DNA of 53,179 bases from Verrucomicrobiota bacterium (lineage in GTDB: Bacteria > Verrucomicrobiota > Verrucomicrobiia > Chthoniobacterales > UBA10450). The translations under genes and the position numbers were made by a program. The stretch lies in NCBI GenBank assembly GCA_003220055.1, contig QHRF01000080.1, positions 1 through 53,179 on the forward strand. Reading direction: 5' to 3'. The notes under the pieces are model-generated. The model was not told the origin of the DNA. It saw only the letters and a list, made by a program, of their open reading frames with translations, and searched no databases. How positions within the stretch are numbered: the stretch's first letter is position 1; each line of letters starts with the position of its first letter. Positions 19,829 through 52,334 of the stretch are shown here, piece by piece.

Positions 19829-19889
19829 TGTAGCGGCGGTCTCTGACCGTCGCATTATTCCCGGTCGGCGGTGAGACACCACCGCTACA
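19829..19889. repeat. Twin-hairpin element TGTAGCGGCGGTC...CACCGCTACA
   Basis: TGTAGCGG / CCGCTACA ends; inner hairpins GCGGTC-tct-GACCGT(C) and GCGGTG-agaca-CCACCGC; lies 4 bp before the next start codon. Confidence 0.7.
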
Positions 19890-26058: not shown

Positions 26059-26095
26059 TGATCAGCTTAACGTGAGAACGCAAAAGCGGAAGCAG

Positions 26096-26165
26096 TTGTA
26101 GCGGCGCTCGCCGCAGCGAGCGCCGAATCCAATAAAACAGGCGGTCGCCGCTGCGACCGCCTCTA
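26096..26165. repeat. Twin-hairpin element TTGTAGCGGCGCTCGC...GCGACCGCCTCTA
   Basis: Arm 1 GGCGCTCGC-cgca-GCGAGCGCC; spacer GAATCCAATAAAACA; arm 2 GGCGGTCGC-cgct-GCGACCGCC. Confidence 0.8.
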
Positions 26166-43561: not shown

Positions 43562-44313
43562 TTGGAAAACTTCGGCGCGCGAATGCTGACGCCTTCGCTC
43601 TCGAGACGCGACTTTAGAGCGCGGGCGAAATCTACCGCGCCCGGCGTATCGCCATGAACGCAAACCGTCTCGGCCCGAACATCGACATCCACGGCGTCGA
43701 CCGAGCGAACTTTGCCTTCACGCAACATTCGAACAACCCGCGCAGCGGCTTCTTCAGGATCATGTAACAATGCGTCCGATCGCGTCCGCGGGACAAGTGA
43801 GCCGTCGCTCAAATAATTTCGGTCGGCGAAGACTTCATGCGCGATTTGCAGTCCATTTGTTTTTCCCGCTCGTGCGAGCGCGCTATTTTGCGGCGCAAAC
43901 AGAATCAGGCTGAGATCGACTTTGGCAACTGCGCGGCCAATGGCATCGGCGAGCTCCTGGTCGCGCACCGCCATATTATAAAGCGCGCCGTGCGGTTTCA
44001 CGTGATTTGGCTGGACGCCGGCCGCTTCGGCGATCGCTTGGAAAATCCCAAGTTGATAGACGACCGCGTCGAAAACTTCGCCGTTCTTCACCGGCAGCTC
44101 TTTCCGCCCAAAATTCTCGCGATCGAACAAGCTGGGATGCGCGCCGACAGCGACCTTGCGGTCGCGCGCCGTTTCAATTGACCGGCGCATTGTTTCGGCG
44201 TCGCCGGCATGAAAGCCGCAGGCAATGTTGGCCGATGTGACCAGCACAAGAAGCTCGTCGTCGTGCCCTGCGCCTTCGCCGAGATCGGCATTTAGATCGA
44301 CCACCAGGCTCAT
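43558..44313 (-). CDS. pxpA: 5-oxoprolinase subunit PxpA (LamB/YcsF family)
   Basis: VDLNADLGEGAGHDDELL, SANIACGFHAGDAETM, VKPHGALYNMA. Confidence 0.95.
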   Translation of the reverse strand: MSLVVDLNADLGEGAGHDDELLVLVTSANIACGFHAGDAETMRRSIETARDRKVAVGAHPSLFDRENFGRKELPVKNGEVFDAVVYQLGIFQAIAEAAGVQPNHVKPHGALYNMAVRDQELADAIGRAVAKVDLSLILFAPQNSALARAGKTNGLQIAHEVFADRNYLSDGSLVPRTRSDALLHDPEEAAARVVRMLREGKVRSVDAVDVDVRAETVCVHGDTPGAVDFARALKSRLESEGVSIRAPKFSK

Positions 44314-45296
44314 TTAAAATGGGGCTCGAGTCCGCGACGGAATTGTTCCAGGTTTCGCTCCCGTTCGAGCAATAGCGCGTGCGCATCACGAATCGAAACT
44401 TCACTGAAACGAATTCTATTGCCGGGACACAACTGAGCGGCGATTGGAAGATCGACCGTGATCACGTGCGCGATCTTTGGATAGCCACCGATGGTTTGGC
44501 AATCATTCAGAAGCAGAATCGGTTGGCCGTTCGGCGGAACTTGGACCGTACCCGGAGCCACCGCCTCGGATAGAAGATCGACGTCTTCACTCCGCTCGAG
44601 ACGCGGACCGTCCAACCGAATTCCCATTCGGTCGGAATCCGGCGAGACGAAAAAGCCCTCACTGCTGAAGTGTTGAAGCGCTGATTCAACAAAGCGACCG
44701 GAATCCGCGCCGGGAAGGTAACGCAAGACCGGCGATCGCCGAGCCGGACTCGACCAATCGTGCGGCGGTTTCCAGCGCGCGATTTTTTCAGTGCGCAATT
44801 TTTCGATCAGAACTTTTGCGCGAGGCATATTTTCGCCGAGCGGAAATTCCTCGCCATCACGCACGGGCCGCCCTTTTACGCCGCCAAATCCGGCTCTCAA
44901 ATCCCCGGAGCGACTACGAAGCACTACTGGCACATCGATTCCGCCGGAAATCGCGAGCCAGGCGCGGCATCCGCCCGCCGGAGAGTCGATCGAAAATTCT
45001 TCGCCCGCGCGCACTAAAGCCGGATGACCCGCCGGCAACGATGTTGACCCAATCCGGACGTCGAAGTTGCCGCCACTCCAAACGACAATTCGGTCGTCGG
45101 CGAACCGCAGCCGCATGCCGCCGAAAGTAATTTCGAGACCGGCAGCTGATTCTTCATTGCCGGCGAGTAAATTCGCGACCCGCAATGCGTGTGGATCGAG
45201 CGCGCCGCTGAGCGAAACACCAAACTCCCTAAGACCGGCGCGTCCCAGATCTTGAACACTCGTCAAAAAGCCAGCGCGAACAGCCGTCGCATTCAC
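44310..45296 (-). CDS. pxpC: 5-oxoprolinase subunit PxpC (biotin-dependent carboxyltransferase/KipA family)
   Basis: GFLTSVQDLGRAGLREFGVSLSGALDPHALRVANLLAGN; DCQTIGGYPKIAHV. Confidence 0.95.
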   Translation of the reverse strand: MNATAVRAGFLTSVQDLGRAGLREFGVSLSGALDPHALRVANLLAGNEESAAGLEITFGGMRLRFADDRIVVWSGGNFDVRIGSTSLPAGHPALVRAGEEFSIDSPAGGCRAWLAISGGIDVPVVLRSRSGDLRAGFGGVKGRPVRDGEEFPLGENMPRAKVLIEKLRTEKIARWKPPHDWSSPARRSPVLRYLPGADSGRFVESALQHFSSEGFFVSPDSDRMGIRLDGPRLERSEDVDLLSEAVAPGTVQVPPNGQPILLLNDCQTIGGYPKIAHVITVDLPIAAQLCPGNRIRFSEVSIRDAHALLLERERNLEQFRRGLEPHFK

Positions 45297-46036
45297 TTCG
45301 TCGCTCTTTCGAACTCTTCACGCGTGATGGAGCGGAAGCGGACGCGGTCTCCAGCACGCAAAAGCACAGGCGGATTTTTTTGCGGATCGAACAATTGCAG
45401 CGGCGTCCGGCCAATCACGTTCCAGCCACCGGGCGATTTGATCGGATAAATTCCGGTTTGCCTTCCACCGATCGCGACCGAGCCGGCCGGAATCTCTTTG
45501 CGTGGAACATCGCGCCGCGGCGTCGCGAGCCGGCGCGGCAAACCGCCGAGAAAGGGAAAACCGGGCGTGAATCCGACGCAATGAACCCGGTAATCGGCTC
45601 CGCAATGAAGATCGACAACTTCTTTCCAATGAACGCCCGCGTTCCGTGCGACTTCATCGAGGTCGAAGGCGAACTCCTGGTCATAACAAACGGGAATCTC
45701 AATTGAATTGTAGCCGGGGACGTTGTCCCCGGCCTGCCTGCGGTCAGCCCCGAAAGCCTCCGGGGCGACTACAGATTTCAGGGCTTCATGAATCCGCTGT
45801 TCAAACCATCCAAAAACATTTTCGACCGGCGCGCCCGCGTCAATCGCGCCGATCGGATCACAAAAAAGCGCCACGGTGGTGTAGGCTGGCGCGAGCTCAA
45901 CGACGCCGCGAATTTGCGCAGCTTCAAGCGCACGCTTCGTCGCGAGCACTTTATTTAAGGCGCCGGTTGGAGCGTCGTAGAAATTTTCAGCGACACGAAT
46001 TAGCAGCGCGGAATCTCCGAGCGGCGTGATTTCCAT
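45293..46036 (-). CDS. pxpB: 5-oxoprolinase subunit PxpB (KipI family)
   Basis: EIPVCYDQEFAFDLDEVA, GFTPGFPFLGGLPRRLATPRRDVPRKEIPAGSVAIGGRQTGIYPIKSPGGWNVIGRTP. Confidence 0.95.
   Translation of the reverse strand: MEITPLGDSALLIRVAENFYDAPTGALNKVLATKRALEAAQIRGVVELAPAYTTVALFCDPIGAIDAGAPVENVFGWFEQRIHEALKSVVAPEAFGADRRQAGDNVPGYNSIEIPVCYDQEFAFDLDEVARNAGVHWKEVVDLHCGADYRVHCVGFTPGFPFLGGLPRRLATPRRDVPRKEIPAGSVAIGGRQTGIYPIKSPGGWNVIGRTPLQLFDPQKNPPVLLRAGDRVRFRSITREEFERATK
45708..45773. repeat. Twin-hairpin element located in frame inside pxpB
   Basis: TTGTAGCCGGGGAC-gtt-GTCCCCGG...CCCCG-aaagcctc-CGGGGCGACTACA. Confidence 0.75.
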
Positions 46037-48298: not shown

Positions 48299-49355
48299 CG
48301 GTTCGGCGCCGATGATGTTGTTCTCAGTCTGGGGCGGATCACTGGCCGATCTTTATCCGAAACGGTCGATTCTGATCACGACCCAGACCGCGCAAATGAT
48401 CTGCGCGTTTTTGCTCGCGATTGGAGTTTGGGCTGGATTCGCCAACGCCACGTTCATTGTCATCGTGGCAGCGTTCAATGGCATCGCGATGGGGTTTGAT
48501 ATGCCCGCGCGACAAGCGTTCACCGTTGAGATGACGAGTCGCGAAGATTTGCTCAACGCAATTTCGCTCAACAGCTCGATCGTCAATGGCGCACGGGTGA
48601 TCGGTCCGTCGCTCGCGGGATTAATGATTGGCGCCGTTGGCGTTTCGGCATGCTTTTTATTCAACGGTCTCAGTTTCGTCGCAGTTATCGCGGGTTTGTT
48701 AATGATGCGACTGCCGATTTTCGAGCGGAACATCGAGATCATTTCGCCGACGGAACATGCCTGGAATGGAATCGTCTATTCGTCTCAACATCCGCGCGTG
48801 CGCATGATTCTGCTGTTGTTTCTGGCAGTCGGAATTTTCGGCTGGTCTTATATGGTAATCATGCCCGCGTTTGCGCGCGACGTGCTCGGGCGCGGTGCGG
48901 ACGGTTACGGTGTCTTGATGTCGGCCAGTGGAATCGGCGCGTTAGTCGGCGCACTGATCGTGGCAACGTTCGGACATCAGTTCACGCCACGAAAGCTCGC
49001 GCTCGGCGGTGTCTGGTTATTTTCCGCGGCGCTACTCGCGTTTTCGTTCACGCGAAATTTCTACCTTGCGCTCGCATTTCTCTTCATCGGAGGGTTCGGA
49101 ATGCTCCTATTTTTCTCGACGACGAACACGGTGCTGCAAACCATCGTGCCCGACGATATGCGCGGCCGCGTCATGGGCGTGTGGTCGCTCATTTTCGGCG
49201 CCATGATCCCCGTTGGCAGTCTTGAAGCCGGCGCCGTTGCGCATTGGTTAGGCACTCCCTTCGCGCTGGCGTTAGGCGGGATCATTTGTGCGATATCCGC
49301 CCTCGTGGCGCTATTGGTGATCCAACGACGGGAAGCGCAACTCGCTCGAGCATGA
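48249..49355 (+). CDS. MFS transporter (MFS_3/EntS-like), apparently lacking its first TM helices
   Basis: GSAPMMLFSVWGGSLADLYPKRS, GFDMPARQAFTVEMTSREDLLNAISLNSSIVNGARVIGPSLAG; the usual N-terminal 50-60 aa are absent. Confidence 0.82.
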   Translation: MSVACLPISKCGAVATIGSAPMMLFSVWGGSLADLYPKRSILITTQTAQMICAFLLAIGVWAGFANATFIVIVAAFNGIAMGFDMPARQAFTVEMTSREDLLNAISLNSSIVNGARVIGPSLAGLMIGAVGVSACFLFNGLSFVAVIAGLLMMRLPIFERNIEIISPTEHAWNGIVYSSQHPRVRMILLLFLAVGIFGWSYMVIMPAFARDVLGRGADGYGVLMSASGIGALVGALIVATFGHQFTPRKLALGGVWLFSAALLAFSFTRNFYLALAFLFIGGFGMLLFFSTTNTVLQTIVPDDMRGRVMGVWSLIFGAMIPVGSLEAGAVAHWLGTPFALALGGIICAISALVALLVIQRREAQLARA

Positions 49356-49424
49356 GTTGCAGAGGCGCTTATACCAAGCGCCTGTTATTAGTTCGGCGTT
49401 CGCCGCGGCGAACGCCGCTACAAC
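49356..49424. repeat. Twin-hairpin element directly after the MFS stop codon
   Basis: GTTGCAG-AGGCGCTT-atacc-AAGCGCCT-GTTATTAGTTC-GGCGTTCGCC-gc-GGCGAACGCC-GCTACAAC; reverse complement matches 52265-52330. Confidence 0.8.
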
Positions 49425-50923: not shown

Positions 50924-52186
50924 TTAAAAATCCAGCGGGAGCTTCTTTGGGTCCTCGATGCATTCTTTCACTTTAATCAGGAACGACACGGCTTCCTTGC
51001 CGTCAATCGCGCGATGATCGTAACTGAGCGCGAGATACATCATCGGGCGCACTTCCACCTTGCCGTCGACCGCGGTCGGTCGCGGCATAATTTTGTGCAT
51101 ACCGAGAATTCCGCTTTGCGGTGGATTCAAAATCGGCGTGCTTAAGAGCGAGCCGTAAACGCCGCCGTTTGAAATCGTAAACGTGCCGCCGGTCAAATCC
51201 TCGATCTTCAATTTCCCTTCACGCGCTTTGGTCGCGTAGTTCGCGATGTCGCGCTCGAGATCGGCGAACGATTTTTTGTCGGCGTCGCGCACAATCGGCA
51301 CCACCAGTCCGCGCTCCGTTCCAACAGCGACGCCGATGTCATAGAAATTGTTTTGGATGAAATCCTCGTCTTCGATCCGTCCGTTGACCACGGGCACGGT
51401 TTTGAGCGCTTCGACGGACGCTTTGATGAAGAACGACATGAACCCCAGCTTCACGGAGTGCTTTTTCGTGAACGCTTCTTGCGACTTTGCGCGCAATTCC
51501 TGAACCGCGCTCATGTCGCATTCGTTGAATGTGGTCAGAATCGCGGCGGTGTGCTGCGCCATCACCAGCTGTGCTGCAATCTTTCGACGCAACGGCGACA
51601 TTTTCTTTCGGACAAACCGTCCGTCATGCGATTCTCGATTTTCTGTAGTAGGGGAAGCAGTCTGCTTCCCATCGGCTGGGACGCTGATAGCGTCCCCTAC
51701 AGTCTTGCTTTTGGTTTTGCTCGCCGCTTCGAGCGCGTCCGCTTTTGTCAGGCGTCCGTCCGGACCGGTCCCTGAAATTTTCTCCGGGTCGAGATGTTCT
51801 TCGTCGACAATACGACGAACAGCCGGCGATAGAGTCCGAGCCGGACTGGCAGTTTTCGCATCGGCAGATTCTTCTTTGGGAGGCGCGGCCGCTTGCGCCT
51901 CGGATTTTGCAGGGGCTTTCTTCTCTGCGGGCTTGGCTGCGGGCGCTTTTTTCGAGTCGTCGATGGTGGCGACGACTTCGCCGATTTTTACTTCCTGACC
52001 TTCAGGAACAATCGGGTCGAGCACGCCGGATGTTTCGGCCGCGATCTCAGTCGAAACTTTGTCGGTCTCAAGGGTAAAAAGCGCGTCACCGGCATTGACG
52101 AAATCGCCGGATTTCTTGTGCCAGACGGAAACGATTCCGCTTGTGATCGATTCACCGACAGCTGGAATTTTTACTTCGACGCTCAC
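50924..52186 (-). CDS. sucB: Dihydrolipoyllysine-residue succinyltransferase (2-oxoglutarate dehydrogenase E2)
   Basis: Lipoyl domain ([13 protein letters not shown]), E3-binding domain ([34 protein letters not shown]), catalytic [16 protein letters not shown]. Confidence 0.97.
51646..51702. repeat. Twin-hairpin element located in frame inside sucB linker
   Basis: TAGTAGGGGAAGCAG-t-CTGCTTCCC-ATCGGCT-GGGACGCT-gat-AGCGTCCC-CTACAG. Confidence 0.8.
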
Positions 52187-52264
52187 CGCGCCTAACTAAG
52201 CGCAGAAAAAACGCGCGGTCGAATCAAACGTTGAAACATTTGGCGTGCGGTCATCCTGAACGAA

Positions 52265-52330
52265 GTTGTAGCGGCATTTGTCTCAAACGCCGAATAATAA
52301 ACAGGCGCTTGGCAAAAGCGCCTCTGCAAC
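52265..52330. repeat. Twin-hairpin element just downstream of the sucA stop codon
   Basis: GTTGTAGCGGCATTTGTCTCAAACGCCGAATAATAAACAGGCGCTTGGCAAAAGCGCCTCTGCAAC. Confidence 0.8.
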
Positions 52331-52334
52331 GCAT

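Follow-up and report, generated by a model that had tools for sequence, protein, structure and literature searches.

The pxpB gene of a soil Verrucomicrobiota MAG (Chthoniobacterales) carries, inside its reading frame, a palindrome that is very probably a mobile REP doublet that landed in an inter-domain linker of the gene in the ancestor of its clade and has been tolerated there as a passenger. What is new here is that this linker, together with that of an exonuclease-ligase fusion gene, is occupied repeatedly, across genera, by differing palindromic repeats. The element lies in a stretch of 53,179 nt (the window) of a 2.08-Mb assembly (G000) of 148 contigs that is about 80% complete, and whose nearest relatives in a protein search were Chthoniobacterales and other Verrucomicrobia MAGs.

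A GTAG-tagged doublet is translated within pxpB

The host gene is a clear member of its family (PF02682, 222 bits; TIGR00370 PxpB, above the cut-off) and is followed in its operon by an intact pxpC (Table 1). The original prediction had placed a twin-hairpin repeat at 45708-45773, translated in frame between the N-terminal domain and the IEIPVCYDQEF block. The repeat is indeed present, at 45709-45773, where it reads TGTAGCCGGGGACGTTGTCCCCGGC-CTGCCTGCGGTCAG-CCCCGAAAGCCTCCGGGG-CGACTACA, and its translation is as proposed, with KS-VVAPEAFGADRRQAGDNVPGY-NS-IEIPVCYDQEF running across it. Each unit has an outer GTAG followed by a palindrome, and the two units stand head-to-head with tags outside and hairpins inside, the arrangement of REPINs and BIMEs. 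When compared with dinucleotide shuffles, the palindrome was found to fold unusually well both as DNA (z -3.95; none of 200 as good) and as coding-strand RNA (-39.7 kcal/mol; z -3.97; one of 200 as good).

Table 1 Features of the window
Feature	Position	Strand	Description and basis
pxpC, intact, next in the pxpB operon	44310..45296	minus	NCBIfam TIGR00724, NF045499
pxpB, 5-oxoprolinase subunit B, 247 aa	45293..46036	minus	Host gene of the insertion; full-length Pfam PF02682 and NCBIfam TIGR00370
Pair of GTAG-tagged REPs, head to head (REPIN/BIME type), 65 bp, TGTAG...CTACA	45709..45773		Minus-strand translation is PxpB residues ~88-110; sequence, fold
First REP: GTAG tag and hairpin CCGGGGAC-GTT-GTCCCCGG	45709..45733	plus	DNA fold; genomic match
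Second hairpin, CCCCGAAAGCCTCCGGGG	45748..45765		Perfect form CCCCGAAAGCTTTCGGGG in G003 and G007
sucB doublet, translated	51644..51701		Inside sucB (50927-52195, minus); 423-aa open frame, TIGR01347
Third doublet, apparently intergenic	19829..19889		Two hairpins, not crossed by any long open frame

The first REP (25 nt) is 96% identical to part of another doublet at C48:49801-49825, and an exact search with its 25-nt pattern matched the pxpB copy only; judged from these sequences, it is the stems of such REPs that vary and the tags that stay constant. The tag of the second REP (CTACA on the plus strand) ends at 45773. Hairpins of the CCCCGAAAGCTTTCGGGG type also stand outside REPs in G000, G005, G006 and G007, and doublets of the same stem class that do not have this extra hairpin measure 48-50 bp, so that the pxpB copy appears to be composite, with a separate small palindrome nested in its second REP.

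This small palindrome was also seen in other settings. It occurs twice, as CCCCGAANGCTTTCGGGG, inside an RNase P RNA gene of G005 (RF00010, 206.6 bits; C201, L103:1473-1901). Near position 1503 of L101 (G000:C48:27584-27605) the palindrome is seemingly translated as ELFAVGNPESFRGQGGYVVV, in an ORF that we take, by eye, to resemble prolyl oligopeptidase. A separate observation concerns tRNA-like sequences at G000:C32 (~30.5 and 30.9 kb; L005/L006), G005:C338 (L096) and G006:C206 (L093), which have CCCCGAAAGC[TC]TTCGGGG in place of the anticodon arm. ARAGORN and Rfam called only ordinary tRNA genes, elsewhere in the same loci, and none of the altered sequences, which are possibly repeat-invaded tRNA copies. 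An Rfam search of the window gave no match.

Doublets are dispersed through the genome, which also encodes a RAYT

The pattern TGTAG-N36..66-CTACA has 45 exact-tag sites in G000, about 40 of which are strongly folded twin hairpins of several stem classes; for the remaining genomes of the genus the count is 31-60 sites. Thus, copies are many and dispersed, as is usual for REPINs and BIMEs, and they are mostly extragenic: some 30 of the 40 doublets do not lie within a long frame flanked on both sides by conserved sequence. Since a reversed-pattern control outscored the tag pattern itself in site counts, making it a poor gauge of chance, we relied for controls on fold energy and on simulated windows. 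The real window holds three strongly folded TGTAG-N36..66-CTACA sites (Table 1), as against none in 60 simulated windows of matched dinucleotide content; a first simulation with fewer windows had given 0.00 tag pairs. Further TGTAG-type palindrome pieces lie at 26095-26127, 49352-49424 and 52286-52334 (inverted pairs I1 and I2), none of which matches the exact two-tag pattern.

The genome also encodes a REP-associated tyrosine transposase (RAYT; G000:C146, L165:1417-1881; NF047646, 86.7 bits against a cut-off of 80). RAYT genes are usually linked to REPs. No TGTAG doublet was found within 1.5 kb of this sole clear RAYT in the roughly 80% complete genome, and the failure to see the usual linkage counts against our explanation.

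The element overwrote an older linker

The insert is common to G000, G003 and G007, three species of one genus, while the pxpB orthologues of G004 and G005 (same genus), of genus g13 and of G038 do not have it. In a tree computed without the linker region, the carriers group in a single clade (SH-aLRT 94) that falls within the empty-site sequences of G004, G005 and g13, which dates the insertion, as far as the gene sequences tell, to the ancestor of the three species. A contig of G055, a member of another genus, carries a pxpB nearly identical to that of the window (G055:C147; L023/L072) alongside the pxpB of G055 itself, and is probably binning contamination from the window's species.

Alignment of orthologues had been expected to reveal a clean insertion of about 20 aa. 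The element is indeed absent from close relatives, but the linker was replaced rather than simply extended: between the same anchors it measures 45 nt in G004 and 75 nt with the element (net +30 nt, +10 aa), so that a gain of 30 nt from a 65-nt element implies that about 35 nt of the old linker were lost. We therefore rejected a clean insertion of 65-66 bp (~22 aa), as the empty sites show most of the ancestral linker to be overwritten. Overwriting is also seen at the second ligase element, and probably took place at the sucB element as well, to judge from the sequences; the sucB linker of G003 and G007 does not have the doublet of G000.

These comparisons bear on whether a mobile element need be invoked at all. 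The GC-rich local composition, and nothing else that we found, would suit a chance drift towards a GC-rich palindrome, or an artefact of assembly or contamination. Against this, MAGs of three species that were assembled separately share the insert (91% and 88% protein identity), its first REP recurs in the genome (96% over 25 nt) and no simulated window has a strongly folded TGTAG/CTACA pair; we consider such an origin extremely improbable.

Translated copies share one coding phase

The original prediction had called for a count of other ORFs with translated repeats. We found at least eight doublets translated internally, that is, with conserved sequence on both sides in the ORF, in seven conserved genes of G000: pxpB, a PLP-dependent decarboxylase (L009), dnaE2 (L013), sucB, whose doublet sits in the linker that joins the E3-binding domain to the catalytic domain, tgt (L017), a PAS histidine kinase (L106) and a fusion of an exonuclease with an ATP-dependent DNA ligase, which holds two elements (L113). 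Probable internal copies lie in the N-terminal region of rho (L011) and in a 407-aa ORF without a family (L118). Other copies stand near the starts of lysA (L105), of a ribD-like gene (L119) and of the open frames of L108 and L126, which by eye we take to be uvrC-like and ppdK-like, respectively; in these four cases the copy may precede the true start.

All ten of the internal or probable doublets start at codon position 3 (xxT GTA Gxx), a bias with p of about 0.002 against the two open phases, which are about equally stop-free, and the pxpB REPs checked in other species are all at codon position 3 too. A start at position 2 would bring in a TAG stop, and one at position 1 a Cys codon. One ligase element (C87) had seemed to lie in a different phase; this was rejected, since G007 and G003 show the real tag to be an inner TGTAG in the usual phase, which is mutated to TGTGG in G000. 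The frame through the pxpB palindrome is open, as had been noted, yet taken alone this is unremarkable: in either of the two TAG-avoiding phases 71-79% of REP doublets lack a stop, compared with about 70% when their interiors are shuffled. The idea that REPs are pre-adapted to coding was rejected on the same figures. Most elements are not multiples of 3 in length, so surviving intragenic copies must have had compensating changes.

The encoded peptide is little constrained

When differences between carriers were pooled for the pxpB, tgt and two ligase inserts, we counted 19 nonsynonymous and seven synonymous changes, compared with 114 and 234 over the remainder of the genes (Fisher p 7e-5), and pN/pS was about 1 (0.7-1.8) inside and 0.14-0.31 outside, the counts per single insert being small. 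This comparison indicates that the coded peptide is little constrained; with so few differences per insert, and with change in the inserts below the synonymous rate of their hosts, a weaker constraint on DNA or RNA is possible. In the AlphaFold model of PxpB (mean pLDDT 86.7; 15 sequences) the only segment with pLDDT below 50 is residues 92-107, inside the insert; none of three PDB alignments spans the insert.

A reading in which the insert now serves the protein as a useful part, such as a longer linker or docking loop, and is selected as protein, is very unlikely. Its retention in all three species of the clade and the identity of the G003 and G007 peptides would fit such a role, but over 23 codons G000 and G007 differ by five nonsynonymous changes and one synonymous change, and the insert is predicted to be disordered. 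We infer instead that the insert is a tolerated passenger, near neutral in the cell.

The same linkers are occupied repeatedly

Many pxpB orthologues of genus g14, as well as that of G002 (g3), carry a single GTAG REP of the TGTAGCCGNNGTC-NNT-GACNNCGGC type, which occupies this same linker and is read in the phase seen in G000. As the g14 sequences lie away from the window's clade in the tree, there were at least two insertions into pxpB, or one with several losses. The linker of the exonuclease-ligase fusion holds GTAG doublets in G000/G003/G007, G005, G006 and G044, and differing palindromes of other sequence in G004 and G071, in G073 and G067, and in G054 and G062. The sucB gene of G006 has, at the position of the G000 doublet, what appears to be a decayed doublet belonging to a different stem class. 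While one stem class could reflect a single insertion and later change, differently built repeat families can hardly have come from one insertion, as their sequences suggest. The long palindrome in G004 (L182) and G071 (L183) reads GGTAGCGCACGCGTC...GACGCGTACGCTACC in G004 and is translated as GSARVPGAGEGASPS...GTRDAYAT.

In the single REPs of g14 and g3 pxpB, 85.7% of stem cells pair, with both-sided changes in seven cells of two pairs, and the covariation score was reached by none of 500 shuffles, a control that ignores relatedness, while a slide of -3 retains much of the score. This covariation counts against a purely neutral passenger. Together with the retained pairing and the strong fold of the coding-strand RNA (-39.7 kcal/mol), it would suit a hairpin kept as nucleic acid, for instance as a co-translational pause or a structure for mRNA processing where the two domains meet, or as a gyrase/IHF-type site, with the peptide incidental. 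Besides the weakness of the control, however, re-insertion or gene conversion from other REPs gives the same covariation pattern, G004 and G005 do without the element and their pxpB genes have no evident damage, and the second stem of G000 differs from that of G003 and G007, with G-U replacing Watson-Crick pairs. We therefore judge a nucleic-acid role of this kind improbable. A broader proposal, that the pxpB and exonuclease-ligase linkers, and perhaps that of sucB, are, in this bacterial family, standing landing sites that unrelated palindromic families colonise time after time, and that the hairpins are then selected as nucleic acid, for example in pacing translation between domains, while the peptides drift, is in our view rather unlikely.

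Discussion

The preferred explanation, a mobile doublet tolerated as a passenger, would run as follows. A non-autonomous REPIN, for which a RAYT would presumably supply mobility in trans, and which is taken to be mobile from its presence or absence between species, would have landed between the two PxpB domains, in their flexible linker, in the common ancestor of three species. Insertion would have been preceded or followed by loss of about 35 nt of linker; with an element that is not a multiple of 3 and some 35 nt replaced, the net change was +30 nt and the frame survived. The element is read as xxT-GTA-Gxx, the sole phase that avoids both the TAG stop and a leading Cys codon, and the resulting loop of about 22 aa would have been tolerated, unused, and kept as a nearly neutral passenger.

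Here, a mobile repeat creates protein sequence in a soil lineage, and the empty sites permit a direct comparison of before and after. What deserves pursuit is that the same linkers are occupied again and again by different repeats, as a natural experiment that can tell at which protein positions invasion is tolerated and as a test of whether intragenic hairpins are simply tolerated or used.

Like REPINs and BIMEs (Bertels and Rainey 2011, PMC3116915; Nunvar et al. 2010, PMC2817692), the elements are GTAG-ended hairpin doublets in many copies in a genome with a RAYT. Unlike those systems, which are described as extragenic (PMC3116915, PMC2817692), about a quarter lie inside ORFs, and no repeat-flanked RAYT was found.

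The likeness to Rickettsia RPEs drawn in the original prediction holds for behaviour, as palindromic repeats have entered functional ORFs in frame (here eight or more elements, spread over seven conserved genes), but not for family. RPEs come from another phylum, we claim no sequence relationship to the pxpB element, and we know of no dedicated transposase for them. RPE-4 and RPE-6 are described as CGTC-tagged (PMC3733652), while the pxpB element is a GTAG-tagged REP doublet and falls outside the RPE sequence families.

The closest precedent is the work of Di Nocera et al. (2013, PMC3733652), who described GTAG-tagged REPs in the PVC group, the verrucomicrobium Opitutus terrae having the largest number of intragenic GTAG repeats. 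Over half of the intragenic inserts reported there are dimers or groups, coding for 20-30 aa, in hosts such as a DNA ligase and uvrA (O. terrae) and, outside that species, dnaE2, and the authors likened these translated repeats to RPEs (PMC3733652). The idea of translated repeats was therefore right in kind, while the claim that such a system would be new in this lineage does not stand, since it was known from the phylum in 2013. The O. terrae dimers and the elements described here share phylum, tag, head-to-head arrangement, translation within ORFs and a length of 20-30 aa (PMC3733652); pxpB was not seen among the hosts named in main-text passages of that article, which notes one case of such repeat occupancy, in recB of two Xanthomonas species. 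Relative to what is described there, the present analysis adds empty sites, codon phase, pN/pS, the overwriting of linkers and their repeated occupancy across genera.
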